A stretch of DNA of 64,000 bases from Ulota crispa. Lineage: Eukaryota > Streptophyta > Bryopsida > Orthotrichales > Orthotrichaceae. The stretch covers positions 14,074,817-14,138,816 of the forward strand of contig OY987249.1 of the NCBI GenBank assembly GCA_963920765.1, given 5' to 3'. A program made the position numbers and the translations under genes. Positions 11,740 to 60,582 of the stretch are shown here, in pieces (positions within the stretch are counted from its first letter, which is position 1; each line of letters begins with the position of its first letter). Under the pieces are notes generated by a model. It was given only the letters and a program-made list of their open reading frames with translations, had not been told where the DNA came from and searched no databases.

Positions 11740-13060
11740 TGATTATCCATTTTCAGGTATCTTGGCCATGAAGTTATGCGGCTGGGGTGAATGGACCCCT
11801 AGTGTTAGCCTTTCAACAAGCTACCATGGAAAGTCATTTGTGTGGAAAAATTTATTGTAGAATATTTTATATTAACCCCTAAAAGACCAACTGTCCCCTC
11901 GGGGGATAGTTGGGATTTTGGGCATGTACTTACAACTAAACTACTTTGTACAATTTTTTGAAACTTTTATGGAAGATGAGGAATTCAAAAACCTACGTGG
12001 GCATCTAATTTTTTCTTCATTCCAACATTTATTGAAGAAGTTATGCATGAATTTCTGCAAAAAGGTGGAGATCGGGCAGCCAAAAACTTTTCTAAAAATA
12101 ACATTTTGTCAAATTAAAAATCTGAAATTGGTTCTTTAGATTTATACATATGTAGAGAGCTTTGAATCATTCAATTACAATTTATGATTGAAAAGTTTTA
12201 GTTTGCGGGCAAGTACGGAACTCCCATACTTCTATTCCTTTTGCCTTTGGTGGTATACTTTTTGTGCTCTTTGTGAATTTGTTTTTTGACTTTTTTTTTT
12301 TCCTTGCTGTAGTAGGCTAAGATTCCTTGGTTTTTATCATTTGGATTAGAGTTATTCACATTTCACAATTTTACATAAATCCTCCAAGTTTGCCTAGTGT
12401 ATATGCAAATTTGATGGCCTTATGGCATTGCAGGATTTTACAAAATATGATTCACACCTCCAATTCATTTGAAAATTCTCCCACACTTACCTAACTTGGT
12501 CTTCTACATGGGAAAAATAAACCTCACATTTGCGTAGAGCATTTTTTTTTATTTAGAGGCAATCAAAGGCTTCTAAAATTTTTGGGCAGCTAGGAAAAAA
12601 ACTATTTTTTTCACTTCAAAAGTCAATATCTCACTCCTCTACATCTAGAATGAGCTAAGTTTTTTTCCACAATTACCTCCCATAGTCTAGGGCAAGATCT
12701 TACGGTTGGATTTCCAAAAATAATTGTTTTTCCTACCTTTGTACTCATTCCTCCAAAAGTGGCAGTTTTAAGTAACTTTCATTGAAAAAAGGGCTTGGTC
12801 CTTTAGGGGTTAAAGGACAAAGTTGCAACTCATAGGGTCCCTATGAGCATCACTAAACTAACCTTGAAACGGCTTGGATGAATTCCTATACATGTACTTG
12901 ACGGTCCCAATCCCAATCCTCTCAAACTAGCTCCTAAGCTTACATGTGGCAGATTTTGCTTATGTAAGTGGCATTCACTGCTCCACTTTGGGTTAAATAG
13001 CGTGTGGAGAACACCCCAAATGTAGAGTGCAAAAATGGGGCCCGATTGGGAATGGGTTAT
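11740..13060 (+). mobile_element. Unclassified repeat, family L, copy 2, split by a D element
   Basis: The pieces 11740-11871 and 12814-13060 are collinear with the reverse complement of 1716-2180. The D element at 11876-12809 lies between them. Words such as TTAGCCTTTCAACAAG, GTACTTGACGGTCCCAA and GTGTGGAGAACACC match. A 63-codon ORF at 13004-13195 has no recognisable product. Confidence 0.6.
11876..12809 (+). mobile_element. TTAA-type element, family D, copy 1
   Basis: 934 bp, flanked by TTAA on both sides (11872-11875, 12810-12813). Ends read CCCCTAAAAGACCAA inward from the left and CCCCTAAAGGACCAAG from the right. The interior shares GATTTTGGGCATGTACTTAC, TGAATCATTCAA and GGTTGGATTTCC blocks with other D copies. 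It is non-coding. It sits within repeat L, whose uninterrupted copy at 1716-2180 shows the site before insertion. Confidence 0.85.
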
Positions 13061-14140
13061 CCTATCTTATCCCATCATTTTGCTCCCCAATTCACACACA
13101 ATCATATCCTATCTGTCACAACGCATTGCGCGCTCATTAAGCGGGTCAAGGAAGTGCTTCCCTACGCGTTTGTCAACAAGCAATTATTGGACTAGATCAC
13201 CTTGCTAGAAGAGAGGCACTCCTATGAGATCACTTGATTAAATTAATTTGTAAAAAGGAATTGTAACTTGTTTGAATTATGGGGCACCCTTTGAGGTGCT
13301 TAATAGAGTTGTCAAACCTTATTATTGGGTCATTGCAAGAAACACTTGTCAGTTTTGTCTCAAACAGCCTTAAACAACCTTAGTATTGGTAGTACTGTGA
13401 GCTTTGGAATAAAAATAAATTAAACAAAATAAAATATGGATAATTTGTAAAGCACTTATAGTATACTTGTGAAAATTCAAACCTAGAAAAAAAATATCTA
13501 AAAGTTTTGCACAAAAATAGAGAGACCAAAAACACTAAGAAAAAGAACACTTTGCTTTTTGCTTTTTAGAAAATAGTAAAAAATTTGAAAAAATAAACTA
13601 AAATTTGGCCATTTTTCCTAATTCAAAAGTGCTCCTTTTCCCTCAAATTCATTTTTGGGAAAAATAAATTGTATTTTGTGCACTTGCACAAAAGTAGTGC
13701 ACTTTGAGCACACGTAGAGGGTGGATATTTTACTATTGTTGAAACCTGTTTTGCAAGATTGTGTAACTTTAGTACAAGAACTTGTTTGGGAATTTTGGCC
13801 TTCAAATTTGCATTTTAGAATCAGAAATAGTACTCAAAACCCCCCAAAATGGCCAAAGTAGACACCTACTTGGAGGCTATTTAAAAATAGCAAACTAATT
13901 TTATAGATATTTAAAAAATCAATAAATATTTGTGACTATACATGTATCTTCATTTCAAACTGTAATAAGAAAAAGTTTATGACGCAATAGTTATAGCCAA
14001 AAAACCACCCGCCAAAAACCAAGGGGACAAAAAATAGTACAAGTGTTTTTTGCAATCATAATATTGTGAAAGTTATTGAGTTATGGAGTGAAGTCTCCCA
14101 AAGTTATTGGGTGAAAATAATGAAGTACTCCAAAACACCA
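13061..14140. other. No gene seen
   Basis: AT-rich intergenic sequence with runs of A and T. The ORF at 13623-13805 (-) is short and unrecognised. Confidence 0.35.
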
Positions 14141-14330
14141 TAGTTATTAATTTGGGAAAAAGTCTCTTCCAAAACAATTGTTGGGGATACCAAATTTTGC
14201 ATTTGTGAGAATATCTTGTTGATTTAAAGTGATTTTTTAGTAATTTGTTCAAACGTCATATTTGTTAATTTGAGAAAATCGCTACATTTTGGGACTTTCA
14301 AATTTTGATCTAAAAATTTTAGGAGGCCTC
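14141..14330. repeat. Family J ends (TTAATTTGGGAAAA repeats)
   Basis: Two J-type termini in the same direction: TATTAATTTGGGAAAAAG near 14145 and TTGTTAATTTGAGAAAA near 14264. Related termini bound the elements at 31635-31761, 34085-34326 and 45994-46128. Here the copy is rearranged. Confidence 0.45.
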
Positions 14331-14483
14331 CTAAAACCAAGCTCAACATTTTTTTTGTACACGTTGTCCTGATGGAGATTCTTCCATTATGTAAATACTT
14401 GTTATTTATTTATGTTTGTGTTGATTTCAATAAATCAACAGTTGAGGCAAAATGGGTGGTCGTGGTGAGGACCACGGTTTGGT

Positions 14484-14523
14484 GACAGCGCAGCGGCCAT
14501 AGATTCCAATGCGCTGCGCTGTC
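14484..14523. repeat. Perfect 12-bp-stem hairpin
   Basis: GACAGCGCAGCG (14484-14495) pairs exactly with CGCTGCGCTGTC (14512-14523) around a 16-base loop. It is GC-rich in AT-rich surroundings and sits beside the SINE-like piece. Confidence 0.7.
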
Positions 14524-14526
14524 TTG

Positions 14527-14705
14527 TCACATGCACAGCTCAGGGGGGTAGGTAGTGGGTTGGCTGGGCCAATTTCCTACCTCACTAGTTGCCAAGCCGT
14601 GAGCCGCCATCACCGCTTGACGAGTTCGATGGGATTCAAACCCGGACCGGCGGGCGGCCAGAGACGACCGCTTCTCCAGCCAACCAAGTTCACAACTTGA
14701 TAACT
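14527..14705 (-). mobile_element. SINE-like, tRNA-derived fragment
   Basis: Read on the minus strand the sequence carries a pol III B-box-like GGTTTGAATCC preceded by GGCCGCCCGCCGGTCC, with a possible degenerate A box (TGGCTGGAGAAGCGG) about 40 bp upstream. It is much richer in GC than its surroundings. This layout is that of plant tRNA-derived SINEs. It is not a tRNA gene because no cloverleaf can be drawn. The ORFs in this stretch are shadows. Confidence 0.45.
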
Positions 14706-14829
14706 GAAGATAAGCGTTTAACGCTATTATATGCTCGCAAAGGCACGTGGCCACTTTACGATGGTGTTTATTATGTAATTTAATCATTTTTATATGTTTA
14801 TCTAGATATTTTGGAAGGCTCATATATTT

Positions 14830-16510
14830 TGCCTTTGTTTGAATAAAAATACTAAAAATTTAGAAGTCAATGGGAAAGGTGTGAAAGGAAAAAGGTTTTG
14901 GCATCTATGGTGAGGTTAGGATAAAGAGGAGCATGGGCTGATGTGCCCCACCTCCCTACCTTAAATAAGGTCGAAATTATGAAAAAAAGGATTCCTTAGT
15001 TGTTGGAAGTTAGTGTATGAGTGTTGGTGAGAAGAAGGGGAAAAATCCCGAAACTTTGATGTGAGATTTTTTTTTGTATACATGATTTTGAATTGAAATT
15101 TGAGGAGATTGTTCCTTGTGTGATTACCTTTCCAAAATGAGTTTGCAAGTTTGATTTGGAGTTGTGATGTAAAAGTTATGAGTGTTTGAATTTTGGAGTC
15201 AAAAAGCCAAACTATGAAGAAAGCCTGAAACTTTGACAAGCCATAACTTATGATTTGTATATCATTTTGTAACAAGATTTGAAGAGAGTGTTTATCATAG
15301 TATTGGCTTTCTAGAAAGTCCTTAGACTTGAAGTTTGAAGCTTGGACGAGAAAGTTATGGAAGTGTGAAGGTTTAGAAGTGGCTGCCATTTTGTTAATAG
15401 AAGGCCGAGACTTTGAAGAGCTACAACTTTTGGATAGTAAGAGATTTTCTTTTCAAATTTTTAGGAGTGATAGTTTGTTGTCATAACTTTTCAAATTGTT
15501 TTTAATCATTTCATTTGGAGTTTTATTGAAGAAGTTATAGTGGGTAGAAGTTGGAGGTGTGGGTGCTCTCTAAAAAATTGAGACCCACACTTTGATTAAC
15601 TAGAGCTTTCGGACAGAATTTTGTTTTGAAGTGAAAATTTTATAAGTTGTAGCCAGTGATATCATCTTTCTAAACTAATATCACATTTTTATGGGTGATG
15701 TATAGAACAAAAGTTATAGAGGTTTATAGAGGCAATGTCTAGTTTGTAAGGAGGAAGAAGAGCCTCTACTTTGAACCCACATAACTTTTGGTCAATATCT
15801 TAGATTGAGTTGAAATTTGAAAGAATGTTAGAGGATTAGAAGAACTTTTTAAATTGCTATTATACTTAGCATTTGAATCTTTGAGCCATCTCTGGCACTA
15901 GATAGAAGGTTGCTGCTTTTCTAGGACTTGTTATTTGTGATTTTCCCCATTGTTTTTATTAAAACATGAAGACATAAAGACTTGAAGATCTTAAGATATG
16001 AAGATTTCAAAAGGAGTGTTTTGGATTTACTTTTTATGTATGAGTAAGATGTGGCTTTGTTATTCCTAGCCGGTTTTGGAGGCTCGTTTGTGAATTTATT
16101 TCCATTTTGTTTTGTAAACCTTGTTGCGGGCAATTTGGGTTAAACCAAACTTAACCCCATTTATTGTCATGGTGACAAAGTAGGATTGATCACCCACATG
16201 GTTGAGACTTGCTCTATTCTCACGATCTAGAATTTTAGCCAGCAGATTGTGAATTTGATTTTAAGATCCCGTCATACAGACGGCAGCTCGTATCTGCTGT
16301 CCCGATCTACCCGTCCCGTATCCAGTGGGCTCTTATCCCTACCTTGACCCTTATATCCTTAGAGCCAGCCACAGGATAGGTCAACGGAAGACTGAAGACT
16401 GAAGATTTGAAGAGAAGATCAAGATTAAAGACGATTTTAATCGGCAACGCACGATCGCAGCAAGACACCCTGCGTGTTCCCAAAGCGCACTCCTCTCAAC
16501 CCAACAACGT
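14830..16510. other. Unclassified repetitive-looking stretch, no gene
   Basis: Contains repeated phrases such as 'cataacttttgg' and 'gagttgaaatttgaa', and a GC-richer segment at 16260-16510. Long non-coding stretches of this style occur in terminal or leader parts of plant retroelements, but I see no gag or pol coding and no paired long repeats, so I leave it unclassified. The 142-codon ORF at 14961-15389 (-) is low-complexity and not called. Confidence 0.3.
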
Positions 16511-16514
16511 GTCC

Positions 16515-16805
16515 TCACTTGAGAGGAGGAATTTGTAAGGGAAAAAATCTTAGTGGCTCAGACTAAATCTGATATTTTCAACTTTAATTTAAGGTAACTT
16601 TTTGGGTTTTAGGTGGAGTACAAAGTGGGACACCTATTTTTCCCAAACTAACAAATATGGTGTTTTTAAGGTATTTCATCATTGATGTAAGGTCTTGAAG
16701 AAATCATCATAAAACTCATCTTAAATCACCAAAGATCTCTTAAAAACATAAAAATCCAAAAGTTCCAAAATTATGTTTTTTTCCAAATTAACAAATATTG
16801 TGTTC
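16515..16805. repeat. Dispersed repeat shared with GDSL intron 2
   Basis: The block CTTGAGAGGAGGAATTTG ... CTCAGACTAAATCTGA at 16515-16580 recurs as its reverse complement at 29520-29585. It is followed by J-like termini (CCCAAACTAACAAATATGG at 16642; CCAAATTAACAAATATTG at 16783). Confidence 0.5.
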
Positions 16806-17096
16806 CAAGGTTTGACTACGCTTATTCAGGACATTTTTTTTTGATAAATCTGTTTTTGCCTAATTCCAAAAGAGAGCAGGCAATTGGAGAATAAACGCAA
16901 GGAGCAGCCTTGATTAGTAGAATCTATCGCCAATTGGCTTTTTTTTGCCCAAAAAAAATGCAATGCCCTTATTGCCTCTCATGCCCATTGCCCCTTGCTT
17001 GGATGGATGTGGCCTTGAACTTTATCTAGTGCACATCCATGTTTTTGAGCCAAGGGGGAGTAGCTTTGCAATATTACAAACATGGATTAAAAAAAA

Positions 17097-17250
17097 TTGT
17101 TCTCTATTTTGACATTGGTAAATGATATCCTCATTTGTGGTTCTAGACTAAATGAGGGTCTCCCAACATCCAAACTCAAATTCAAAAATTTCAAACTTAA
17201 TCTCCTGATGGTAAATGTTCAAATTCTCACAATTTTAGAAATGCTAATAA
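17097..17250. mobile_element. Arm fragment of a B-type hairpin MITE
   Basis: GTGGTTCTAGACTAAAT and following words match the right arms of B elements at 30590-30670 and 41070-41150. The matching left-arm-type fragment lies at 17876-18000, on the far side of the LINE remnant, in outward-facing order. Confidence 0.45.
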
Positions 17251-17279
17251 ATAGAGCTTTCTACCCTGGTCCCACAAAT

Positions 17280-17690
17280 TCATAAATAAGGATGCATCTA
17301 AGCAAGAGTTAATAAGGGCCAAGGCAAATTGACCCCCTCATTGCCTTTAGCTTGGATGAATAAGGCTAGGAGCTCGATAACAAGAGTGGAGATGGCCCTA
17401 ATAGGAGACTTTAGGATAAGTTGTTCAAGCCCAATAGGCAAATATATGTATAGATATCAGCCGTGGGACATTCTGAGAATGTGTGTGTTATGGCAAATTT
17501 GGAACGCACGGTGCTCCAAGATGTTTTTGCAAACTCAGATTAGTAGAAAACCGGTATTAGGAACATCCTGGGTCTCAATTTTACATGCAAGAAAGGCAAT
17601 TTGGAGGACTTTCCACAATAACACTAGCAACGCAGAGAAACTAGGTGAGCTTGAATGCATTTTTACAAGGGAATGGTTGCATTGATTTTG
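17280..17690 (+). pseudogene. LINE remnant (C-terminal, downstream of zf-RVT-like region)
   Basis: The ORF 17329-17685 (118 codons) contains DILRMCVLWQIWNARCSKMF followed about 20 residues later by a helical WVSILHARKAIWRTF segment. This is the layout I know from the extreme C-terminal part of plant non-LTR (LINE) reverse-transcriptase proteins, where an 'LWxIWxAR' block follows the zinc-binding region. No reverse transcriptase motifs are present upstream, so only a 5'-truncated tail remains. A translated search would settle it. Confidence 0.45.
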
Positions 17691-19330: not shown

Positions 19331-19334
19331 AATC

Positions 19335-20198: not shown

Positions 20199-21160
20199 CC
20201 CCTAAAGGACCATTGTCCCCTTGGATTGACAAATGGGATTTTGGGCATGTACTCACAACTAAACCATTTTATGTGATTTTTTTAGACTTTTATGGAAGAT
20301 AAAAAATTCAAAGATGTGCATGGACATCTAACTTTTTCTTCATTCCCATATTTATTGAAGAAGTTATGCATGAGTTTTTGGAAAATAGAGGATGGCTAGT
20401 AGCCCAAAAACTTCTTTGAATATTGCGTTCTTTAAAACAAAAATCTGAAACTAGTTTTTTAGATTCACATATATGTGGAAAGTTTTGAATCATTCAATTT
20501 TGATTGATGAGTTTGATTGATGGATGAGAAGCTTTCGTTTGCTAGTAGGTATGATTTTGAGAGACTCCATGCCTACCCACAAACTGAAACTTCATAACTT
20601 TCATCTCATCAATCTAAATTGTATGATTCAAAGCTTCCCACATATATTTAAATCTAGAGAAACAATTTCAGATTTTTATTTTTTTTAAATGCAACATTCA
20701 AAGAAGTTTTTGGGCTACTTGCCCTCCCTTGTTTTCCAAAAATTCATGCATAATTGTCTTCTTCAATGAATGTTGGAATGAAGAAAAATTATATGCCCAC
20801 ATAGACTCTTTGAATTCCCCATCTTCTGTAAAAGTTTCAAAAAATCACACAAAGTAGTTTAGCTGTAAATACATGCCTAAAATCCCAACTGTTCCTTGAG
20901 GGGACAATTGATCCTTTAGCCCTTGAATGGCCCAAAAGCCCTTTGCAGCCGTATGTACGGTTGTATTTGAGCTATTCTGAGGGCTTTCCAAAAAAGAAAA
21001 TTGCACCCGCCATCATACAAGTTGATTGTGAAGTTAATACAACCCTTCAATATGTATGATTGTAACACTTAATTTCCAACTGATTCAAACTTTTGAATAT
21101 TGGTTGCGATCGCATTTGGTACCGTATCTCTACAGCCCAAGGGCCTTTTAGGGGTTAGGG
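20199..21160. mobile_element. TTAA-type element, family D, copy 2: an inverted dimer
   Basis: Starts CCCCTAAAGGACCA and ends CCTTTAGGGG, the end being split by C1. Unlike other D copies both halves are the same D left terminus facing each other: ATTTTGGGCATGTACTCAC, TGTGATTTTTTTAGACTTTT and the TGAATCATTCAA block recur as complements around a centre near 20560. The flanks are TGAA and TCAA. The related I copy at 33442 has TTAA at this place, so the original site was TTAA. Confidence 0.75.
20920..21154 (+). mobile_element. TTAA-type element, family C, copy 1
   Basis: 235 bp flanked by TTAG on both sides (20916-20919 and 21155-21158), inserted into the CCTTTAGGGG terminus of D2. Ends read CCCTTGAATGGCCC and CCCCTAAAAGGCCC. 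The interior shares GCCGTATGTACGG, CAACCCTTCAATATGTATGA and TTTGGTACCGTATCTC with copies at 36382 and 57747. Non-coding. Confidence 0.8.
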
Positions 21161-23936: not shown

Positions 23937-25269
23937 GGGACCAACTAGGTGGACACCCTCCAATTGCTATGCGGACACCCCCCATAGTCAAATCTATTAA
24001 AATTTGAGATTAATATTATGCTGAAATATAAAATGAAATAAAAGCAATAGTTTAGCAGACACCTATGTTTACAAGTGCTCCAAACATACAACAAATCTGC
24101 CTTGTTTGTGACACGGTCAAGAGTCAACCCAATAAATGAAGGGAGCAATTGGTTTAACTCCCAACCATGTCACAAATAGGCAAATTTGTTGTGTGTTTGC
24201 AATGCTTATAGATGCAGATGTATGCTAAAGTATTGCTTTGATTTATTTCATATTTTAGTGTAAAAATTATCTCAAATTTAACCCCTAAAGGCTTTTGACT
24301 ATGTTTTCATCAAAACTACCCCAAAATCGCCATTTGTAGTGCAAGTATCAAATTTTAGATAAAAATTATTTTTGGACACATCTAATTGTAAGATCTTGTA
24401 GTACACTAGTATCCAAAGATGTGGAAAAAAAATTCAGAATTTGAATTGACAAAAAGTTGTTTTTTGCCCCTGCAAAAATTTGGGCAGCTACACTTCACAA
24501 GGTCATATTTGTATGAAAAAAGCTTCAAAATGGTTGTAATTTTTTGTGTTCATTCTTCAAGGCAAGTCAGGTAAACATTTGAAAATTTTCAAATCATTTG
24601 GAAATGTACAACATATAGGAAAAAAATAGTAAGTAAAAAAAAATAGAGAATGATACAAAATACTAAATTGTTAAGAATTTAATTATGAAAAACAAAAATT
24701 CCAATCCCAATGGTCAAAATGTTGTAATAAACAATGTACATACTTTGGCTTTATTTATTTTCCAAAATATTAAAAGTTGAGTAAAATATAGGACTTAAAA
24801 GTTTTTTTTAGAGTAGGGAATCCATAACTGCCCGCAAATAGAATCTCCTCATAACTTTCATCTCATTGATGAAAATTGAATGATTCAAAGCTTCCCAAGG
24901 AAATGTATATATATATATATATATATATATTTAAAGAACCAATTTCAATAAACAAAATTCAAAAAACGTAATTTTAAAAAAAGTTTTTTGAGCTGCCCAG
25001 GCTGCTCCCCAAACAAAGAAAACTACATATCATGAAATAACTTTTGAACCATGAAGTCACAAGTTATGAAATTTGTTGGGCCTTAAAGCTACTCCTTGGA
25101 CACATCATGTGTGAAAATTTCAAAAAAAAAAAATGAAAAATCCATTTGTAGTGAGTTGCCCAAAATTGCTATGTTGCCAAAAAACATTGTTTGGGCCTTT
25201 AGGGATTAATAGATTTGACTATGGGGGGTGTCCGCATAGCAATTAGAGGGTGTCCACCTAGTCATTCCC
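23937..25269. mobile_element. Hairpin element E, copy 1, split by D3
   Basis: Inverted ends GGGACCAACTAGGTGGACAC and GGGAATGACTAGGTGGACAC with arms containing GTTTGTGACACGGTCAAGAG and complements. Flanks TTATTTTT on both sides (23929-23936, 25270-25277), an 8-bp duplication. The intact copy at 56148-56544 shows the element without D3. Confidence 0.8.
24282..25205 (+). mobile_element. TTAA-type element, family D, copy 3
   Basis: 924 bp between TTAA (24278-24281) and TTAA (25206-25209). Ends CCCCTAAAGGC and TCCCTAAAGGCCC inward. The other E copy reads AAATTTAATAGATT across this point (56484-56497), a clean empty site with one TTAA. A (TA)n run lies at 24907-24930. Non-coding. Confidence 0.85.
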
Positions 25270-30200: not shown

Positions 30201-33200
30201 CAACCAACAACATTGTACTCTCAAAAGTTTATAAAGCTTTATTTTGTCACAGGTTTAGGCGCCTTAACCCCAAAACGACGTTGAGGACAAATGTGTCCTT
30301 GACCAATTTTTGAAGTTAAATAAAGGGAATTGATATGTGCACACCGGGGTTGATATTTGCACACCCCTGGTGGGATAAATTATTGGCTTCTATCATCAAA
30401 AAGTTGTATTTGAGAATTTTGAATTTAGATTTGAACTTAGAGACTATGATTTAGACTAAAACCATAAAAAAAGTTGCAATTGAACAGCATTCAGTGAAAA
30501 AGCTTAGTTAGAGGGAAAGGTGTTACTTTTACTTTTGTTTGTAAAAAAATATAAGCTTTTTCATTGAATGTTGTTCAATTGCAATTTTTTTTGTGGTTCT
30601 AGACTAAATCATGGTCTCTAAGTTCAAATTTGAATTCAAAATTCTCAAATGCAGCTTTTTGATGGTAGAAATCAATACTTAACCCGCACGGGGGTGTGCA
30701 AAAATCAACCCCCCGGTGTGCACATATCAATACCCTAAATAAAACCTTCCCAAATTACTTTATTTGATAGTTTATATTTTTGATTTTTTTTTTGAAGTTT
30801 AGGTTTAGCTTCAACAATCTGATTTTACAAATGATTCATTATAATGATTTTGTACACAGGCTTCCATTGCAATCTTGACTTTATGTAGTGTTGAGGGCTC
30901 TTGGGAATGAGCCTAAAATACACTAGATCTTTTGAGAAAAAATCACATTAGAAATTCATTTAAAAAAATTGTAGAGTAGATTTTGAGAAGTCATAAATTG
31001 ATTGGGGTTATGCATGTTAGGCTCTTTAACCTCATGTTTTTTGGAGATCAAATTTTTAAATTTGGCATGTGAAAAGAAGATTGAAAGACTTTAAATCACT
31101 TTCACAGTTTTAACACCCTCATGATTAAACATTATAATCTTTCAATCCATAAGAGACATTGTTATGTTTTCTTTTCTAATGTCATCTCTAACATGTCTAG
31201 TTTGGTTTCATTTGGTTACAATTCAGAATGAATTGATACAACTTATCAAAATGTTGACTTTTTGTTCAAATTAGAACAAATTCCTAGAAGCTCAAGAAAT
31301 CCAGGGTCATTTTGGGGTTAAGCTAGTATAACATTAAAGAGGCTCAAGACCTCAGGTTCATTATTGTTTTGGTTGTTAACTGTGAGTTGTATTTTACATT
31401 GTGTTCAAAACTGGGGATGCAGTGCCAAATGCATCATCTTTCCGGAACTACGGTCTTTACTACATGGAAGATGGAGGCAACGATATCAATCGTGCTATTC
31501 AAGCAAATTCTAGTGCAGACCGAATCCGCAACATCATCATCCCAGAAGTCATTTCCAATTTCACCTTGGCCATTACTGTACGTTCAACTTATTATCTACT
31601 CTATAGTCTACTCTAGGTATATTTATTGCAATAATCATTAATTTGGGAAAAAATCCAGTTTTAGAACTTTTGCATTTCTGCCCTTGAAAGAGTATTGGTA
31701 AATACTGTTTCGAGAATCTAAAAACAAACTCCGAAAATTAAGATTTTCTCAAATTAATGACTACATTAGAAGAAAAACAAGGATAAACAATTGTCACAAA
31801 TTGTCACAATTAGATTACCATAATTACCTTGCAACTACATAAACAATTGCACAACAATTGTACAATTAAATTGTAATTGTGCAGTTGTAAGGCAGTTATG
31901 GAGATCTAATTGTTGTAATTTGTGACAAGCGTTTATGACATATTTTTCTTCTAGTGTTGTTTTCTTATTTGTACTCTGTGTTAGTTGCACCAATTTCAAA
32001 TGAGGTTTTAAGTAGTAGCTCAAATGGCCAAAACAATTGTTGGATATGCCTAAAATTTCAATTTAACTATGTCAAAATGTGGTATTTCACATGTTTTTAT
32101 GATTATAATAAAATCTCGTAGAATTTTTAAAAAAAATTTGTAGCATTTTGGTACAAATGGTAGGAGTACCCAAACAATCCAAAGGTGCGTTCAAATTCAT
32201 CCCTAAAAATTGTCAGTAAAGTCTTCATTAAAGTTCTCACTAAGGTCACATCACCTAGAAGTGAAAGAACTTCTCTTTTAGCCATAATCATATGTCCTCA
32301 CAAATGTTAGATTTTCTATAATAGATCAAATCTAAATAAGAAGCGTCTCAATATTTTATACAAAAGTCAAAATTTATTGGCAGATTTTTAAAACCCAACC
32401 TCCAATTTCAATGTCTTGCAACATTGAATATTTGGTAATGGCTAAAAAATGGGTGATGTTGGAGATTCTCTAAAGAGAATTTATGTGTCATTTGGGATTT
32501 GGTAAGGCTACCCCTGTTTTTGAAAACCTGCTTGTATTGGGGTTACCATACCATAATGCCACTCTTAATAAACAAACACACACCTTTTTACAACATTTCT
32601 TTTCATTTGGTTGACTAAAACCCATTATTTAAATTGTTTGGAATTATTTGATGCACAAGAAGAAAAACAAAAATAAACCATTGGTCCACAAGAACTAAAA
32701 ATGTTCACAACTACTATAATTGAGTCAATTTATAGTCATAATATAGTTGAATAGGATAATTGCAATCGTTGTGGACAAATCATTTAGGACATTTTTTTTC
32801 TTCTAGGGATACATTTTGACAAAGTTGTCTGTAACAATTGACTAAAATTGATGAGGTGATGTGATGTTGTAGCGATTGTATGATAACATTGGAGCAAGAC
32901 AGTTCTTCATCACAGGGTTTACCCCCTTTGGATGTACAGCATTTGCACTAGGACTTGGCTGGCCGGCTCTCAACCCTGAATATGGGCCCCTTGGAGACGA
33001 TGGATGTGCTCAAGGAGTGAACCAATTTATAAAAGAGTACAACCAAGCACTACTAAAGGAGCTACAAGCATTGCGGGCTCATTTGGTGGGATCTACCATT
33101 ATTTATGCGGACATTTATCCCTTAATCTATGACGTCATCACGCATCCCACTTCTTACGGTACACAAATCCAAAACCCATACATTGAATATTGCGTTTAGG

Positions 33201-36381: not shown

Positions 36382-36605
36382 TCTCTGAACGTCACATGGG
36401 CTTTGGAGATACGGTACCAAATACGATCGCAACCAATAGTTAGAAGTTTGAATCAGCTAGAAATTAAGTGTTACAACCTTACATATTGAAGGGTTGTATG
36501 ATGGGAGGTGCATAAAAAAATTTGGAAAGCCCTCATAACATCTCAAAGACGTCTGTATACACGGCCATACATACAACCACAAAGGGCTTTGGTGCCGTTC
36601 AGGGG
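36382..36605 (-). mobile_element. TTAA-type element, family C, copy 2
   Basis: 224 bp flanked by TTAA (36378-36381, 36606-36609). Reverse orientation of C1: TACGGTACCAAATACGATCG, TTACATATTGAAGGGTTG and the GGCCATACATACAACC block. The TTAA on its right also bounds the next element. Confidence 0.8.
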
Positions 36606-46778: not shown

Positions 46779-46968
46779 AATGCTACTGAATGTTATGTAT
46801 CTAAAAAGTGTCAGCAATGAAAAAGGAATAGGATATTCATAAGTAATTGGAAGATCGACGAATGAAGCGTTCCGGACTCATTCACACCTGCAACTACTCT
46901 GTTGTTTCCACGTTCTCATTCCACGTCATATCTTGTTGAAACTGTCTTCCAAGTATTACCACTCTTTG

Positions 46969-47168
46969 CCACGTAGGATCGTTCTCTGCCACGTAGGTTC
47001 GGGTTTTTGCCACGTAGGGTCGCAATATACCACGTAGGGTCGTTTCTGCCACGTAGGATCGCTATTTTCCACGTAGGATCGTTTTCTGCCACGTAGGATC
47101 GTTTTCTGCCACGTAGGATCGTTTTCTGCCACGTAGGATCGTTTTCTGCCACGTAGGATCATTCTCTG
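46969..47168 (+). promoter_or_regulatory. Ten-copy CCACGTAGG minisatellite in the uL18 upstream region
   Basis: CCACGTAGG recurs at 46969, 46989, 47010, 47030, 47049, 47069, 47089, 47109, 47129 and 47149, a 19-21 bp period with consensus CCACGTAGGATCGTTTTCTG. The last units are identical; outer ones drift. ACGT is the core of bZIP/bHLH-type sites, so the array could bind such factors many times over, but this is inference. It ends ~230 bp before the start codon. The antisense ORFs across it are translation of the repeat. Confidence 0.7.
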
Positions 47169-47279
47169 CCAAGTCAACACAGCCCTCACTTTTACTTACA
47201 AGCAAGAGGAACTGATACGAGAAAATGCACTGGAAGGAATTTTGCCATAGAAGCCCCTTTGTCGACTGTTCGAAGCAAA

Positions 47280-50297: not shown

Positions 50298-53200
50298 ATG
50301 GCGGCTTGCACCGGCGCTGCTGCAGCCCGCGCTCTGCTCGCAGCTCATCCATCTGGTCCGCAACGGAGACCAGAGCCTTTGCAGTGCGGCGGCACCTCTG
50401 GAGTGAGTGTAACGCTTCAAAAATCTTTGCACTTCTGACTATAAATTTGAATTGATTCTCGCATTTACCGAGTCGTGTGGAATTTATAAGTCTTATGGCA
50501 TATTTTTTGCAACAGTTGGCGCAAGTATAAGTCCTTAGGATTCTGGTTTTGAAATAATGGAGATGCTTCGGTTTAAGCAACGTCTTGCAAAGAAGAAAAA
50601 GATGCCTCGGCTACAGTAGAAGCTCTAGGGTGTGCGATTGCTAAGCATCGAACTGCGATGGCATGTACGGATCTTAAGTCGAAAGACTACATAATTCCGG
50701 TCAATAATCAGGACGAATATTTGTTTGCGTGTGGAACTTATGAGTGAGGCCTTATGGCATGTTCTTTGCAACAGTTGGCACGAGCAAAAGTCCTTAGGAT
50801 TCTGGTACTGGAACAGTGGAGATGCTTCGTGTTAAGCAACGTCTTGCAAAGAATAAGGAGAGGCCTTGGCTACAGTAGAAACTCTTAGGGTGTGCGATTG
50901 CTAAGCCTCGAATTGCAACGGCGTGTAAGGATCTTAGGTTGAAAGACTACATAATTCCGGTCAATAATCAGGATGAATTCTTGTTGCTAATCCTTGTAGC
51001 GGAACGAAGGAAGCTCTTGACGATTTTCATATTTAAAGAACCTTAGAATTTGGCTTGACTATGTTTTGATTAATTTATTATCCTTGTTTCAGTAATAAGA
51101 TTCTCAGGCTATGCGCTTGTTTACCGCCTTCTGTATTGTGGACCAGCTTGCAAGGTCATCTGCTATGGCTTAGTTTCTTTTTCCGTCTAAGCATTTGGAT
51201 TTGCATAAATTTCAAATAAGAGTTATAGCCTTCAAACGCGAATTTATAAACTTGCGGAATAGAGACTTGTCGTAATGGCTATGTATTCGTGCATGGACTG
51301 GTTAATCCTCAATGGAACAAGAGGCCTAAATTTGGCTCTGTTATGTTTTTTGGACATATATCAGTGGATTGTGTATGCGATTTCTTTGCTTGATTTTTTA
51401 TTGTGAACCAAACCGTTTTTCGCTGAATTTGGTGATTTGACATTTGACTACTTCTGATTTATATTTCTACAATCCATCGTCAATTTAATTGGTCATTTTA
51501 GAATCATGAAATCTATGTCTTGTAGGGGTTAGGAAATTACTGAATACGAGAAGTCAAGAGAGCAATGCTCGATTTTGTCTTTTGTTCATGCATGAGGCGT
51601 CTTAACCATACGGTGTTAACTTTTTTATATCATGCATTTGCAGGTTGCAAAAGCTTTTTTGTTGAAACCCAGTTTTAATTTGAGAAATCAGCACAGCTGT
51701 GTCTATTCTACTAGAAGATGCAGGGCAGAGGCCCGACCCGAGGTGAGTAGGCCGACTACTCAACCTTCGGTGTCACCACCTAAAATTCCCGATTTCGTGA
51801 ATTCCGTGGTAAAAGGTCAACTGGATTCAGAGAATGGTAATGGTAATGGTAATGGAGAGCCGGCGCTCGTGGGAGAGGATGCGGCTGTTTTCGACGTGGT
51901 AGCACAAAGGACATCCTCATGGATCTACTTCACGTTGGTTCTTGGCGTTGTCCTGGCGATTCTTAATTATATATGGTTGGATCCAAACACTGGCTATGGA
52001 GGAGCTTTTATTGATGGCCTCTACTCTCTTTCCAGTAACCATGAGGTGAACTATGCTTGATTCATACAACAGCACCGTCTTTATTTTAAATTTTGTTTAA
52101 TATTCTTTCTTTTTATTCGTGTTTTCTAGTAGGAGAAGGTATTGAGGTTGCCTTGGCTAAGGACTCGAATGAGATATGATGCTTGCAGTATAAGCATTAC
52201 GTCAGGCTTTTGCAGTTCAAGTTCATGTACTCTGGAATCCGTTTATCTCTAAAAAAACGGGAATCCATGTCCTCAAGATGCTTGCATCGGAAAACTACTC
52301 GTATGTTGATGGAGGGTATTTAGAGTGCTACTAGAGTTTTATTAGCATAGCTGACCATGCATGCATTTGCATATGTATTTACAAATTTTTCTGTTGAGTG
52401 CAGGTCGTAATGTTGGCCATCCTAGCAGTGTTTGCTCTAGTTCACAGTGGCTTGGCTGGCCTGCGTGCGCAAGGCGAGAAGTTGGTGGGCGAACGAGCAT
52501 TCCGAGTCTTCTTCGCAGGAATTTCATTACCGTTGGCAGTTTCTGCTGTGGTATGCTGAGACAAGCCCATGCTCGCTTGCTTGTGTTGTGCAGAGAACGA
52601 AACTGCTTTTCCAGTTATATCTTGCAGGATATATTTTCTACCTGGACATATTTTTTTGTTCAATCCTAAGAAAGCCCGATCTCTGTGAATATGTGGGCAT
52701 TGCATTCAAGCTTCCTTAAACCCTAAACCTGGATCATCAAAGTGTAACGCGCTCTCCACATCGTGTGCTTGTATTCGTTAGGTCTATTTCATCAACCATC
52801 GATATGACGGGATTCAGCTCTGGCAAGTTCGTACAGTCCCTGGTGTTCATGAGGCGGTCTGGGTACTCTCCTTCATTTCCTTCTTGTTTCTGTATCCGTC
52901 GACTTTCAACCTTTTGGAAGTTGCTGCAGTGGACAAACCCAAAGTCCATATGTGGGAGACTGGTATCATGCGTATTACTAGACACCCTCAAGTAAGTTAC
53001 GGTCACCTCCAGTTCGTTTCTTCCAGTTTTGTTATTTGCACTGTTTTGAGCACTCGGCTTTTTTATCATGTTCCCGAATGGCTCAAATAAACTCTGAAGT
53101 GAAAGTAGAAAGCCTGACTCTGGAAGTTTATCTTTAATTATAATAACTGTCAAAAAAGACATTTTTTTCTTTCAGAAATACAGGATACTATTATTATTTC

Positions 53201-53707
53201 TCTTTCGTCCCCTCTGTTGAAGCTTTTCAATTTCTATTCGTTAACTTCTATTCATATCGAAAGATCTACTTTTGGCTATTAGGCTCTCAAACTGAACCGA
53301 AAACCCTTTACCTGAAATAAGGTTCTTATTGCCTATTGGTGAACTAAGCTGATCAAATTGGTGCATGGTAGATGGTGGGACAGTTTATCTGGTGTCTGGC
53401 GCACGCCGTCTGGATAGGGAACTCCTTCACATTGACGACATCTTTCGGGTTGCTAGCTCATCATTTATTTGGTGTTTGGCACGGAGACCAACGCCTAGCA
53501 GCCAAATACGGGGACGCCTTCGAGCAAGTGAAAGAGCGGACGAGTATCATTCCCTTTGCGGCTATTTTAGACGGACGTCAGAAGTTACCCAACGATTATT
53601 TCAAGGAGTTTCTCAGGGTACCATATTACGTAATAGTCGTGCTTACAATTGGTGCATATTTCTCACACCCTTTGATGCAGCTGGGTAGCCATATCCTCCA
53701 CTGGTAA
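50298..53707 (+). CDS. Z-ISO: 15-cis-zeta-carotene isomerase, five exons
   Basis: Chloroplast membrane hemoprotein that isomerises 9,15,9'-tri-cis-zeta-carotene at the 15-cis bond, between phytoene desaturase and zeta-carotene desaturase. Exons 50298-50402, 51644-52045, 52404-52550, 52782-52991 and 53372-53707, all phase 0 with GT-AG introns, give 399 aa. The first ~65 residues (Ala/Ser/Arg-rich) look like a transit peptide; an (NG) run at 99-106 sits in the variable linker. TM segments start near 127 and 170. The NnrU-type core has VHSGLAGLRAQGEK, VYFINHRYDGIQLW, FLYPSTFNLLEVAAVDKPK, MRITRHPQMVGQFIWCLAH and the C-terminal ISHPLMQ-type segment. His183 and His299 (with Cys296) fall where the heme ligands H150, H266 and C263 of the known enzyme lie, at a constant offset of 33. 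No damage seen. It looks like a functional single gene. Confidence 0.97.
50473..50990 (+). repeat. 259-bp tandem duplication in Z-ISO intron 1
   Basis: Two copies (about 50473-50731 and 50732-50990) share TTGCAACAGTTGGC, GTCCTTAGGATTCTGGT, AAGCAACGTCTTGCAAAG, GGGTGTGCGATTGCTAAGC and GAAAGACTACATAATTCCGG at a constant spacing of 259 bp with perhaps 10% divergence. It makes up over 40% of the intron. Confidence 0.9.
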
Positions 53708-55243
53708 TCTGAGCACCCAGCTTCAATTGTACATGTAACAAGTGAGGTAAGAAACCCATTCCTGTGGTTTTCAGCTGCTATGAATGGCTTTCTTTTGTAA
53801 AATAGGTTTTTTCTAATTTTTATTTTTGGTGGACCTTGTCCTATCCTCATTAAGATTCTAACGCACTAAAGCTTACAATACCAAAAAGAGTTATACATTG
53901 TTGAAGTCTGAAGTACTAAGGTCTCAATCATGAGCTTAGACTGTGCTTGAACCATAAGTTAAACCCTTACTGTCACTTGGAAATGAATCTAGTGTATCTC
54001 ATGGCTTACGAACCACGTATTTGAAAGTCGCTTTCGTTGTAAATGTGTGACTTTTCAACCCACGGGTCAAGGACCTCCACGGGAATGGGTTTGCCGGCTT
54101 TGCCGATTCATATGGACGAGAGTTGATGACCTTTTTCGACCTTATACAAGTTTAGTCTATTAGCTCCTTTGTTGGATACCAGACTCCACTTTTGTTGGCA
54201 GGTTGTGAATTTCTGTATTGTATCTGTAGTGACCACCTCACCAAGGGCAGATGACTTGTCAACGTGACAGCTACTTGTACCAACGCTTCCTGGAAGAGAG
54301 CAGCATTGTCAAGAGGTTGGTCATTCTCTATTCTTGCATCTTTTGGTGGATTGTGATCCGCTAGAAACACGAATCAGAATAAAATCGAATCAATAATAAA
54401 GTGACGCTTTTTGAATACTTATGTTAATGCATCGAAGCAGGTTGCGCTGTGAAAGGTTTCAACCCACCAAACATTGATTCTGTGAGAAAATTCTAGGTTT
54501 TTCATGAATGTGACTTTGTTATGGCGTTAGTACTTTTACTTTTGCAGCATACTATACAGTATGTACACAGTATTTGCAGAGAAGGGGATGTCAAAGAGTA
54601 CTTGTTCTAAATCGACACTTCTCTGTGATAAGAAGAGTCTACCCTGGGGCTGAGTTCTTGTGACGTTTAGTACATGGTCCTTAGGAGATAATACTTAGAT
54701 AGATACTTTTAGTGTGGTTATACATGAAAATGCTTGTGAAATTACCCATGTAGATTGCTCAGATGTACTATATAGGTCGTTTTAATAAATAGCGGGGAGT
54801 AAAATGAAATTCAGGAACTAACCCTTGTTATAGGGATCATCAATAACTGGTCTCACACGCCACTTAGTAGGCTACCTTTGAGCATGTCTCGTGTCTCGTC
54901 CACATGGTAAGAGCTGGTGAACTATTGTTCTCGCCAATCATTAAGCACTCCCTTTATTTTCATTCTTAATTGCTATATTAGAATTTCGTATAACCTATTC
55001 AATCAGTTTTCCCCCGTTTCATCCGTTGGGGTTTTTACTGATGGCTTTGCTAGCATTGTATGGGAAAGAGGCTAGGGGCCTCCAAAGGGCTGCCTTAATG
55101 TGGATTGATGAACTTTGAGTACATTAATGAAGGCCTTTTTGTTGAGACAATGTGATCATATTGATTTGTTTTATTTGTGGGCCTTATGCCTTTAAATTTC
55201 CAACCAATGTGGTGGCATTTAGACAACTTGACAACGTAGATAT
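53708..55243. other. Downstream of Z-ISO, no gene seen
   Basis: Contains the likely 3' UTR. The antisense ORFs at 53626-53850 and 54152-54370 show no recognisable domain. Confidence 0.4.
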
Positions 55244-55245
55244 TA

Positions 55246-55663
55246 CTCCCTCTGTCCCTCTGAAAACGTCCAAATCAGATACATTTCTTGTACCACTAAA
55301 AAGCTCCCTTTTGCTAATTTCAATTGTTGAGTAAGAGTTTGTCATGTTCAATGATCTCATGGGACAAGTTAAGTGATGAGACAACATTCCTCTCCTAGCA
55401 AGCTTGGCCTTGCCCATATGAGTTACCATGGTTGCTACTAATCTTTGAATCATCAATAATGAGGAGCTACCGCATGTACAAATATGGTACTTTTTGCATG
55501 GAATTTAGGTGCCCAAATGGTAATAGCAAAGCTGGAGATTTTGCATACATTTGGTAGATGGTATATTGATTCTAGAATGCATGTGTCATTAGCACAAAGA
55601 CTAAAAACATAGTTAATCCTTTGCAAAGAACTTTTTTGGACATTTTAAGAGGGATAGAGGGAG
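55246..55663. mobile_element. Stowaway-like MITE (Tc1/mariner)
   Basis: 418 bp with ends CTCCCTCTGTCCCTCT and CTCCCTCTATCCCTCT inward and TA on both sides (55244-55245, 55664-55665). CTCCCTCYGTCCC is the canonical plant Stowaway terminus. ORFs overlapping it are chance frames. Confidence 0.9.
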
Positions 55664-55665
55664 TA

Positions 55666-56139
55666 CATTTTACCAAGTGCTGCTTAACCTTTAAACGTCA
55701 GGCTAGTCACCGCAACCAATCTAGCTACAATTATTTCTATAGCATTCTAGTGATTTTAGAGGTTTCATTAGTGTGGCAATTGCCTAGCTATAGCAAAAGT
55801 CAACAGTACATGTTCACCTTTTGAAAATTGCAAGTAGGGCAACATGGGATCTAACATTGTGCCAGTGACTCTTCTCACAATATGGGTTATCTAAAAATAT
55901 GAGTATATTTGGTGAGGTTGTTTTTTACGTTCCATGGTGGATCATGTGTTTATCATCACTCTTAAAAAAAATCAAGTGAGAAACTACTTTTTTGTGTCTT
56001 CTGGATTGTTTTTTCCTAGCCAAAAGATGAAAAAACTTCTGCCTCAACGTTTAAGGGTTTACAAAGGTACTACTTTGTATGGATTGGCTGAAAATTGGAG
56101 GTATCTTGAAAACCTAGTACCGGTAGTTGAGATGTGCAT
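55666..56139. other. No gene seen
   Basis: A 73-codon ORF at 55934-56155 (+) is unrecognised and runs into the E element. Confidence 0.35.
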
Positions 56140-56147
56140 AAAGAAAA

Positions 56148-56544
56148 GGGAATGACTAGGGAGACACCCCCAGTTGCTAGGGAGACACCTCCTATTGCCT
56201 AACCTATTAAATTTGAGATTATTATTACATAGAAATATGAATTGAAGTTCAAACAATTTTTTAGTGCACATCTGCACCTGCAAGCTTTGCAAACATACAA
56301 CAAATATGTCTCATTTGTGACATGGTCAAGAGTTGAATTTACAAATGAAAAAATCAACTAGTTAACTCTTGACTATGTCACAAATGAGACATAGTTGTTA
56401 TATGTTTGCAACGCTTGCAAATACAGATGTGAACTAAAATATTGTTTTGATTTTATTTCATATTTCGATGTAATAATAATCACAAATTTAATAGATTGGA
56501 CTATAAGGGGTGTCTCCCTTTGGGGAGTTTCCCTAGCCCTCCCC
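56148..56544. mobile_element. Hairpin element E, copy 2, intact
   Basis: 397 bp flanked by perfect AAAGAAAA (56140-56147, 56545-56552). Ends GGGAATGACTAGGGAGACAC and GGGGAGGGCTAGGG inward, arms with CTCATTTGTGACATGGTCAA and complement. The arms include a doubled GGGAGACACC block. It supplies the empty site for D3. Confidence 0.85.
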
Positions 56545-56552
56545 AAAGAAAA

Positions 56553-57742
56553 AGGGGGCTCCCGGGAAAGATGGAGGTAGGCTATGCCTTTACTAACAAA
56601 AATTCACCTCCCGGCTGCTTCTAGTGTGCGGCTACAATTCCAATGGACAATTTTGACTTTTGATTTTTGAAATTTTGGTCTTTTACACTTTTACAAAGAA
56701 CCGAAAAAGATGTCATCAAAAAAAGAAAGTAGCTTTTATTGTTTGTCATGCATACAATGAACCCCCCAAGAACATCAAATAAAGTTAGAGCAGGCCTCTA
56801 TCAAGAATGCACACCATTCCCATGAACAAGTTGTAAGAAAAATGTACTTTTTCTTTTCTGTAAATTTCCAAGAGCTGTGGGTCAATTTTTTCAGTTGGTA
56901 GACGTGGCATTGACCGCACACTATATGCACATCAACTTTGCATTATGAATGCAAAAAAATGTTGTTCACATTGCAAGGTACGTGGTTGCGTTCTTTTGCA
57001 TTTTAACCCAATTCCTTCGTGTTTACATACTCAAGTGCCTTGAAATTGACCTCTCTCACTCAAATGATTAGAAGTTGACCTCTCTCAATAAAACGATTAG
57101 AAATTGATGTCTCTCAATAAAATAATTAGTGGATCAAACTTTTGAAAATTTTCAATAATTTAACTGTAAGGTTTATTTTTTCACTTACTTATGTACACTC
57201 TCTCAAAATTTCAGATTTTGTAAGGGCATACTGCATTGGATCGTAACATTCAACAAGGTCAAAAAAAAATTTGAAACTTGTCCAGTGTGTCAATATATTT
57301 TTGGTCATCCAAAATGATGTCTTCCACTTCATGGATTCTGGTGCAATTTGAATTTCTTGTGAACATGAAATTTGGCATATGCCTCATAAATTGCATGATC
57401 ACCCAATGCTCAAAACATAATGGTATTTTTTAGAAAGAGGGAATTATTTTGTTGGAATTGTCATTACACTAAGGAAATTTCATAAAAGAGACTCTCATAG
57501 AAATAAATTTCAATTACAAAATTTATATGGTGTAAACCTTCATGTGGAGTACTTGCTAAAATGAAATAAAAAGTAAATAAAAAGTAAAATGAAAATTATT
57601 GCCTAATCAAGAAGAGTTGATTTCAAATTTGGCTCATGGACTGAGTCATTGTAAAGTGCATTTGAACAATTTGTGAGCGATACCCTCCCTTTATTCTTTT
57701 GTCTGTATTAATTTTATTTTTTAAGCATGCATGGGTTGACAC
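56553..57742. other. No gene seen; short tandem repeat at 57049-57130
   Basis: GA-rich text, then a three-copy ~33-bp tandem repeat of TTGACCTCTCTCAATAAAA..GATTAGAA (57049-57130). No ORF above 60 codons. Confidence 0.45.
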
Positions 57743-57746
57743 CTAA

Positions 57747-57970
57747 CTCTTGAACATACTGAAAGCCCTTTGCGGCCGTATGTACAGCTATATATACAGA
57801 CGTATTTGAGCTGCTCTGAGGGCATTTCAAAAAAAATTATGCACCTACCATCATACAACCCTTCAATATGTATGATTGTAACACTTAATTTCTAACTGAT
57901 TCAAACTTCTGAATAGTGGTTGCAACCATATTTGGTACCGTATCTCCAGAGCCCAAGGGCCCTTCAAGGG
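57747..57970 (+). mobile_element. TTAA-type element, family C, copy 3
   Basis: 224 bp flanked by CTAA on both sides (57743-57746, 57971-57974). The interior follows C1 closely (CAACCCTTCAATATGTATGA, ACACTTAATTTCTAACTG, TTTGGTACCGTATCTCCAGA). The duplicated CTAA is the complement of the TTAG at C1. Confidence 0.8.
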
Positions 57971-58139
57971 CTAAATCACATATGATACCATATCTCACTC
58001 AAAAATCATTCAATTCCACATTTTTTTGGAAGAAATCCAAACTTTTTAATATGAGCACATGCATTCTTTTTCATAATCTCATCTCAAATACTTACACAAT
58101 AAATGCTTGCCTAAATATTTGAAAAGCCCAAAGTGGGCT

Positions 58140-58200
58140 TCTTGGTCCTTTAGGAACTAACCCCTAAAGGACCAAAGTCCTTATAATGGAATAAGATGGG
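58140..58200. repeat. Abutting family ends sharing CTAA
   Basis: TTGGTCCTTTAGGAA, CTAA, CCCCTAAAGGACCAA: a right end and a left end face outward around one 4-bp target word, like two elements inserted at the same site, or the join of a pair. What they belong to is not resolved. Confidence 0.5.
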
Positions 58201-58320
58201 CTTTGGGCAAGCTTATAAAACTGAAATTTTTGGTCTATGTTTTTGGATTTTTTTTAGGTAGGGATTTGTAATAAAGTATGAGGATATATAATTTTTATCA
58301 AAATCAAATTTGTAATTTAA

Positions 58321-59216
58321 CCCCTAAAGGACCACTTGTCTCTATGAGGGACAAATGGGATTTTGGGCAGGGTCATGCTTATACAATTTATGTTTGAATT
58401 CTTATTTTTTTTCTCCAAAGGTAGAGTTTTGCAAGAGCTACGGGGGAGAACATTTTTATTGAATTCCAATTTACAATTCAAAGTTATAAGGGTAAACATG
58501 TGAATTTTAGTTCAAGGGGCAGCTTGGGCATGCCATTTTTTGTTGACTTCTCCCAAAGGGAACCAATGAAGGAATGCCCCTCAATGGAATTTATCCAAAG
58601 CAATAGTGTACTAAATAAATACATTATTGTATTTGATAAATACATTAACCTTTGAGTTGCAATAGCTACTAGAGATTTAGCTTTATTTCCAATTTTCTTT
58701 CTTGAGATTGTCAATGAAGCTAAACTCTTCCAATATACCGCTTGAATTTTTATATTCTTTAATGCCTTTTTAGAAAACTCGGTTGGCAAAAAACCTCAAT
58801 GTAATTTGAATTCAAGCACATGTTTACAATACAGGGCCATGGAGGGTGTGTTCCATGTCTTGGACTCTTGGTTGATCACAAAAACTTAAAAAAAGATATG
58901 CCTAACATGATTTAGAGCATGTTAGATAAATCTCTTAAGCACCTATAGTGCAAAAATTGTTCACCACATGTGGTCAAAGGTACTTGAAAATTTTGGGCAA
59001 GGGTAAAAAAACTTTATGTACTACCTTTAAATGATCATATCTCTTGATCCGTATGGTCAATCTTCACAAAGTTTTCATGGTGTGTTCTTGAATGAGTCTA
59101 CTATAAGGTCCTAAGGTTAGATTTGATCTTTTTCTGAAAAAGATTGTTTTTGGGATCAAATCAAAATTACGGTTTTGAGTGTTTTTTGAGAAAACATGTG
59201 CTTGGTCTTTTAGGGG
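58321..59216 (+). mobile_element. TTAA-type element, family D, copy 5
   Basis: 896 bp between TTAA (58317-58320) and TTAA (59217-59220). Ends CCCCTAAAGGACCA and CCCCTAAAAGACCAAG inward. The interior is more diverged from other D copies, with its own ORF-free text. The left part keeps GGGATTTTGGGCA. Confidence 0.8.
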
Positions 59217-59673
59217 TTAAAAGTTATAAGAGACTTTGAAGAAATTGTTGATCAAGGGACACATAGGGCTTGCCAATTGCCCTTGACTTTTCCCAACAAT
59301 AACCATTGAAGGCACCCTTCATTGAAGCTTGTCCAAAGCAATAGTGTATTAGATAAACACATTCTTATATTACATATATACATTAGCTTTTGAATTGCAG
59401 TAGTTTATAGAAATTTGGTTTTTATTCATTTTTTTGTTCAACTTCCACCAAGAAGTTTTAGAAAATTTTGAAAAGGAACTTGATTGGAGGGCATTTGGTG
59501 TTTTATATCTTGAGTATCATTTGTTACTTCAACTTACGACAAAAAATTCTACAAGATCCTAGAAAAAGGAACACTCATGAAAATCCTCCCACTTAATAAT
59601 ATAGATATGTTGAAATTTTGATTTGTATGACGCCAAGTTAGATGACCCCAATTTTAATGGCCTAGAATCTTAA

Positions 59674-60578
59674 CCCCTAAAGGCCAAAGCCCTTTTTTCT
59701 ATGAAAGTCACTAAAAATTGCTTTGAGGGGAATGAGTAGAAAAGTAGGAAATAAAGTTTGTTTTGCAAATCCAACCGTAGGATCTTGCCTTAGACTAGAA
59801 GAGGTACTTGTGGGAAAAAAATCAAGTCATTCTAGATGGAGAGGAAGGAGATATTTAGATCTGAAGTGAAAAAAAAGTTTTTTTCCGTGATGTCCAAAAC
59901 ATTTTAGAAGCCTTTGACCACTCTCACATGAAAAAATTGCTCTACACAAAGTTGAGGTTTATTTTTTCCATGTAGAAGACCAAGTTAGGTATGTGTGGGA
60001 GAAATTTCAAATCAATTGGAACTATACAACACATGGGAAAAAAATAGTAAGTAAAAAGAAGTAGAGAATGAGTCAAATCACTAGATTGCTAAGAGTTTAA
60101 TTATTGAAATGAAAAATGCAAATCTCAACGGTCATAATGTTGTAATAAACAATCTACTTCCTCAAGTTTAGTTTTTTTTCCAATATATTGAAAATTGTAG
60201 AAAATAAAAGACTTCAAAGCTTATTTTAGAGTTGAGGATCCGTAACTGCCCTCAAACTAAAACATCTCATAACTTTCATCTCATTGACTGAAATTGAATG
60301 ATTCAAAGCTTCTCATGAATAAAAAAAATCTAAAGAACCAATTTAATATTCATTTTTAAAAGAAATTTTTGAGCTGCCCGGATTGCCCTCCTTCCCTTGG
60401 GTTGCAGAAGATCTTGCATAACTTCTTCGTCAAATGTAGAAGAAAAAAATAGATGCTTTCGTAATTCTTGGGATTCCCTACCTTAAATAAAAATTTCAAA
60501 AAATCACACAAAGCAGTCTAACTATAGGTACATGCCCAAAATCCATTTGTCCCCGAGGACAGTTGGGCCTTTTAAGGG
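59674..60578 (+). mobile_element. TTAA-type element, family D, copy 6, intact
   Basis: 905 bp between TTAA (59670-59673) and TTAA (60579-60582). Ends CCCCTAAAGGCC and CCCTTAAAAGGCCC inward. Collinear along its full length with the disrupted D4, for which it is the template. Confidence 0.85.
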
Positions 60579-60582
60579 TTAA

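Follow-up and report, generated by a model that had tools for sequence, protein, structure and literature searches.

Short TTAA-flanked elements of the moss Ulota crispa are very probably non-autonomous members of the piggyBac superfamily

The piggyBac transposon, an animal element and a workhorse of genome engineering, belongs to a superfamily that shares the use of TTAA target sites with Sola3 and with Kolobok, whose transposase differs from its own. Members such as T. ni piggyBac, piggyBat and the animal PB clades have in common a TTAA duplication, inverted ends beginning with 5'-CCC and a DDD transposase of the DDE_Tnp_1_7 family; among the motifs of the CCC-type ends in animals, PMC10813416 gives CCCTC, CCCTT and CCCAT. 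In plants, piggyBac is mentioned only in passing in the literature searched. 'PiggyBac' is one of seven superfamilies of miniature inverted-repeat transposable elements (MITEs) in angiosperms, grouped there by similarity of terminal inverted repeats (TIRs) and target-site duplications (TSDs) (PMC10004981), and according to PMC5505980 the animal piggyBac system had still to be tried in P. patens. A literature search that did not extend to subscription papers or to the genome paper on Hypnales found no report of a native piggyBac in a moss. Here, we describe a stretch of 64,000 nucleotides from the moss Ulota crispa (assembly GCA_963920765.1, contig OY987249.1, positions 14,074,817 to 14,138,816; hereafter the window), whose TTAA-flanked elements with CCC-type inverted ends are very probably non-autonomous members of the piggyBac superfamily.

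Compared with the animal elements, those of the moss have the same TTAA duplication and 5'-CCC ends, and the same kind of transposase is found in the genome, whereas they differ in their host, in end copies that far outnumber transposase matches, and in a block of about 70 amino acids upstream of the transposase domain in five of eight loci. They resemble the angiosperm 'PiggyBac' MITEs in being short elements assigned to piggyBac; the latter rest on TIR/TSD grouping (PMC10004981), to which the moss adds transposases and shared ends within one genome. piggyBac itself is a known superfamily, and the surprise lies in the host, the very high copy number and the presence of several diverged lineages.

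The elements of the window, with coordinates counted from its first letter, are as follows.

11876..12809, + strand: D element, 934 bp, non-autonomous; TTAA at 11872-11875 and 12810-12813; ends CCCCTAAAAGACCAA / CCCCTAAAGGACCAA
18540..19193, + strand: C element, 654 bp; TTAA on both sides; ends CCCCTCATTGCCC / CCCTCACTGCCC
20199..20919, + strand: decayed D-like element with inverted arms; left flank TGAA
21189..21418, + strand: 230-bp element; TTAA on both sides; ends CCCCTGAGTGCCC / CCCTTAAGCGCCC
24282..25205, + strand: 924-bp element; TTAA on both sides; single-TTAA empty sites in paralogous repeats
30268..31317, - strand: second C-family element; TTAA on both sides; a nested fold-back element at about 30330-30730
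36382..36605, + strand: P element, 224 bp; TTAA on both sides; four further copies in fetched loci likewise TTAA-flanked
57747..57970, - strand: decayed P-family copy; TTAG at both ends
58321..59216, + strand: 896-bp element; TTAA on both sides
59674..60578, - strand: D-like element, 905 bp; TTAA on both sides; 83% to D over 352 bp

A preliminary description of the window had singled out eight clear cases between TTAA words. Read directly at these coordinates, all eight have TTAA immediately outside both ends and, next to it, inverted words resembling CCCCTAAAGG; a single one is degenerate, the left end at 36382, which starts TCTCTGAACG. Its figure of about 15 elements was loose, for beyond the eight clean ones the others are decayed (such as 20199-20919 and the P copy at 57747-57970). 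A pairing of ends by script at 20199-21154 is probably a fusion of the decayed D-like element with a partial P-family match at 21037-21139. The division into at least four families is supported, since D and D-like (11876, 59674, 20199), 58321, 24282, C, 230-bp and P types can be told apart. The two C elements are 75% identical over 547 aligned bp; the P family has seven matches in the loci searched, five of them flanked by TTAA left and right; and the right 595 bp of 58321-59216 are 73% identical to a stretch ending at L032:6533. For the D family, 39 other long matches at 91-96% identity were obtained with 40 of 8599 candidates scored, and the copies diverge from the D consensus by 1.6-4.3%, with one copy at 6.4% (32 rows, 28 distinct copies). 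The D consensus holds no open stretch longer than 61 amino acids. As the preliminary description had stated, no transposase is visible in the window: Pfam reports none on 85 frames of at least 75 amino acids. Rfam gives no match in the window at gathering thresholds.

It had been expected that the transposase would reside elsewhere in the genome, and this proved to be the case. PF13843, the piggyBac model DDE_Tnp_1_7, has 120 matches in this genome (best E 1.3e-73; 116 of 528 candidates scored) and none in any of 14 control genomes. Eight of the 120 loci were fetched (L029-L035 and L038), and their aligned transposase stretches are 29-67% identical in pairs. The D of T-x-DE and that of DN are present in all eight and the D of GVD in seven, being N in the remaining one; these are the aspartates that we take to form the D-D-D triad. 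The transposase of L029 matches PDB chains 6x67 ('Transposase', 4e-20; presumably T. ni piggyBac) and 9c0f (piggyBat, 6e-17). A C-terminal Cys/His block can be seen by eye in L030, L031, L032, L033 and L034, in the last of these in a frame other than that of the DDE domain; it is decayed in L029 and L035, and no such motif pattern was found in L038. Pfam gives on this block sub-threshold matches to other zinc domains only, in L030 and L034. Moreover, a conserved block of about 70 amino acids around RYLFxRxIAKLLGW lies upstream of the DDE domain in five loci, detected by tblastn between loci with E from 4e-4 to 2e-10.

L029, 494-709: upstream conserved block
L030, 5268-5477: upstream conserved block
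L031, 1648-1950: upstream conserved block
L034, 1582-1851: upstream conserved block
L038, 5362-5628: upstream conserved block

It has no match in L032, L033 or L035, and Pfam gives nothing above its cut-off for the four loci scanned (L029, L030, L031 and L034). The block may be an N-terminal exon, an accessory domain or an accessory protein.

In four of the eight loci, the transposase is part of an element of 5.0-5.7 kb with TTAA outside 5'-CCC inverted ends.

L031, 967-5985: transposase-bearing element, TTAA and CCC-type inverted ends
L033, 871-6608: transposase-bearing element, TTAA and CCC-type inverted ends
L034, 900-5993: transposase-bearing element, TTAA and CCC-type inverted ends
L038, 999-6220: transposase-bearing element, TTAA and CCC-type inverted ends

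The borders are supported by other copies in two of them. L031 has two more full-length copies (90% and 88%), which match it over the whole distance between its TTAA words, give or take one base. The ends of L033 are CCCCTAAATGCCTAA, close to CCCCTAAAGGACCAA of D, and a similarity search with this element (40 of 6,734 candidates scored) returned 37 matches to its left end besides the query and 29 to its right end. On the left, 36 begin no more than five bases from the TTAA border, and the other lies 16 bases beyond it; on the right, 28 stop no more than one base from the border, and the other lies 8 bases beyond it. Each of the 29 right ends has a partner among the left matches (36 of 37 entered the pairing), and the pairs delimit short derivatives of 905-1064 bp including the TTAAs; of the eight left ends that stay unpaired, three sit at other transposase-bearing loci. 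Since the 29 short elements stop at the TTAA borders of L033, short elements with the anatomy of those in the window share both ends with an element bearing a piggyBac transposase, which on sequence grounds makes L033 the decisive case. The earlier expectation of transposase genes with matching ends thus holds for CCC-type ends and TTAA at four of eight loci, and for L033 and its 29 relatives in particular; for D, C and P, no such partner was found in the fetched loci, and ends common to transposase-bearing and short elements are shown for the L033 family only.

A bias to TTAA was likewise found beyond the window. Within it, 55 places match CCCCTAAAGG with at most two mismatches and 16 of them are preceded by TTAA, whereas five shuffled versions give 28-44 such near-matches each, of which none or one follows TTAA. 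In 295 kb of fetched sequence, from loci mostly chosen around D copies and with the D copy of the window counted twice, 61 of 70 exact CCCCTAAAGG sites are preceded by TTAA, and all four positions of the TTAA next to the ends are conserved at 91-96%. The first 2.97 Mb of contig C1, a region not chosen for D, give 62 of 72 among the '+' CCCCTAAAGGACC sites listed. A similarity search of the fetched sequence gave 28 D copies of nearly full length; TTAA flanks 24 of them on either side, and in the remaining four one base of it is changed on one side. Empty sites were sought by joining the flanks of an element and aligning them to unoccupied paralogous repeats, and the following figures hold among the alignments listed. 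For 24282-25205, all five show a single TTAA (one with an extra T); for 11876-12809, one of six is exactly TTAA and five differ by 1-2 bases. Many paralogous sites of other elements are not TTAA, being CTAA or CTAG for 18540, TCAA for 58321, TTGA for the D copy of L012, and TGGA or TTGA for that of L016. Such sites would be expected if the occupied copy happened to carry TTAA, an argument that falls short of proof.

The abundance of the ends was determined in 275 Mb of genome (157 contigs, the ten large ones of 41 to 16 Mb, and C11 of at least 5.7 Mb). There are 15,411 exact occurrences of TTAACCCCTAAAGG (7,719 + 7,692) against 1 for the reversed control; CCCCTAAAGGACC occurs 9,597 times against 3, TTAACCCCTAAATGCC, the L033 end together with its TTAA, 4,241 times against 0, and TTAACCCC 53,617 times against 9,944. 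The excess of about 43,700 TTAACCCC ends suggests that elements of this kind number on the order of 20,000 in the genome, with CCCT or TCCC ends falling outside the count.

These observations are best explained by the following scheme. Larger piggyBac elements elsewhere in the genome encode the DDD transposase, and elements that are internally deleted or free of coding sequence would keep the ends that it recognizes. From the known mechanism of piggyBac, the transposase would be expected to bind and cut these ends and so to move the short elements in trans. Transposition would be of the cut-and-paste type: an element would be excised at its TTAA and inserted at a new one, which becomes duplicated in the process; by analogy with piggyBac, a hairpin intermediate and footprint-free excision may be involved.

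Several points weigh against this assignment. Stops occur in 110 of the 120 PF13843 matches, and because of them present activity of the transposases is unproven. Pfam reports no piggyBac zinc model for the C-terminal Cys-rich block, which was read by eye. The borders of L034 and L038 were read from their own sequence only, and no end pair was established in the other four loci (L029, L030, L032 and L035), the L030 stretch being cut short. A duplication of TA inside an obligatory TTAA is indistinguishable by the flanks alone from a duplication of TTAA. Finally, a transposase-bearing partner of the D, C and P families of the window was not found in the fetched loci, L032 and L037 having been considered for D.

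Both of these candidates were rejected. The right end of L032, which resembles D and 58321-59216, is a separate high-copy repeat, and the transposase part of this locus has one long relative (40 of 3,178 candidates scored). L037 is a pair of perfect D-type ends with TTAA, 5,083 bp apart (C1:459882-464964, L037:133-5215), in which no transposase was detected. Its interior is occupied by about 3 kb of an unrelated repeat, other copies of which end within L037 (e.g. C10:2945670-2948621, 87%).

Among the other explanations, the one that survives best is still very unlikely: a Tc1/mariner-like or PIF/Harbinger-like group, duplicating TA or TAA with a preference for TTAA, or a Sola3-type group would have made D, C and P, and piggyBac would account only for the other families. 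If the target is strictly TTAA, duplicating TA yields the same sequence, and the failure to find D's own transposase leaves room for such an origin. However, with all four TTAA positions conserved next to the ends, a 3-bp duplication would be asymmetric, and the ends of L033, with its piggyBac transposase, come near those of D. An origin from Kolobok, another large superfamily that duplicates TTAA, seems a shade less credible again. Such elements have been reported in a chlorophyte and in rhodophytes (PMC9587614), so that the target and the presence in algae speak for them, but the same paper gives their termini as 5'-RR...YY-3', in contrast to 5'-CC...GG-3' here, and the transposases that elements with such ends carry are of DDE_Tnp_1_7. 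The preference for piggyBac over Kolobok, proposed at the outset from the CCC-type ends, is borne out by the PF13843 matches and by the ends of L033 that 29 short elements have in common. A chance pattern of TIRs and TTAA in an AT-rich genome (the GC content of the window is 34.5%, hence TTAA is common) is refuted by the counts of TTAACCCCTAAAGG and TTAACCCC and by the shuffles of the window, and its probability is practically nil.

If the assignment to piggyBac is right, the transposase-bearing elements and their thousands of derivatives are sequence evidence that native piggyBac also occurs in land plants, they account for a large class of dispersed repeats in the moss genome, and they offer a natural system in which to study the entry, spread and silencing of piggyBac in plants. 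We also lean, with some reserve, towards a broader view, in which the native piggyBac population of mosses is large, old and diversified. It would comprise deeply diverged lineages (29-67% among the eight), tens of thousands of non-autonomous copies and, in most of the lineages sampled, a conserved upstream accessory domain outside Pfam, with activity recent enough for the roughly 3% divergence of D. Were this true, piggyBac would rank among the main forces that shape a land-plant genome and would supply native plant transposases that are specific for TTAA and possibly footprint-free.

That the DNA comes from a plant had been recognized from its letters, and the host can be narrowed to a moss by a LEAFY exon. 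A single LEAFY gene was found in the genome, in two pieces, and its long exon shares 104 of 106 aligned positions with PDB 4bhk, which we take to be the Physcomitrella protein (244.7 bits versus 109-174 for the other four LEAFY sequences). Pfam matches in the window are to NnrU, ribosomal L18 and GDSL-lipase. Two frames of the window match NnrU, and a plastid-protein-like frame lies at 51620-52057; the region 51620-53704 perhaps holds a gene for zeta-carotene isomerase.

Other repeats are present as well. A fold-back element with ends GGGAATTGATATGTGCACA is nested inside TTAA elements at 30330-30730 of the window and at L033:1881-2285, and it is perhaps a MITE of hAT type, because its flanks resemble 8-bp duplications (TAAATAAA for the window copy, AAAATATA for that of L033). 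An inverted repeat of 2.4 kb at 7247-9657 has arms of 334 nt (99%) and 516 nt (95% complementary) with 96-bp tandem units inside; no target duplication is apparent in the flanks looked at, and it could be a hairpin or small interfering RNA source or a fold-back element. In addition, the window carries two 20-bp minisatellites, at 46967-47171 (TGCCACGTAGGATCGTTTTC) and 62262-62587 (AGTGCATGAGTCTAAACCTT).

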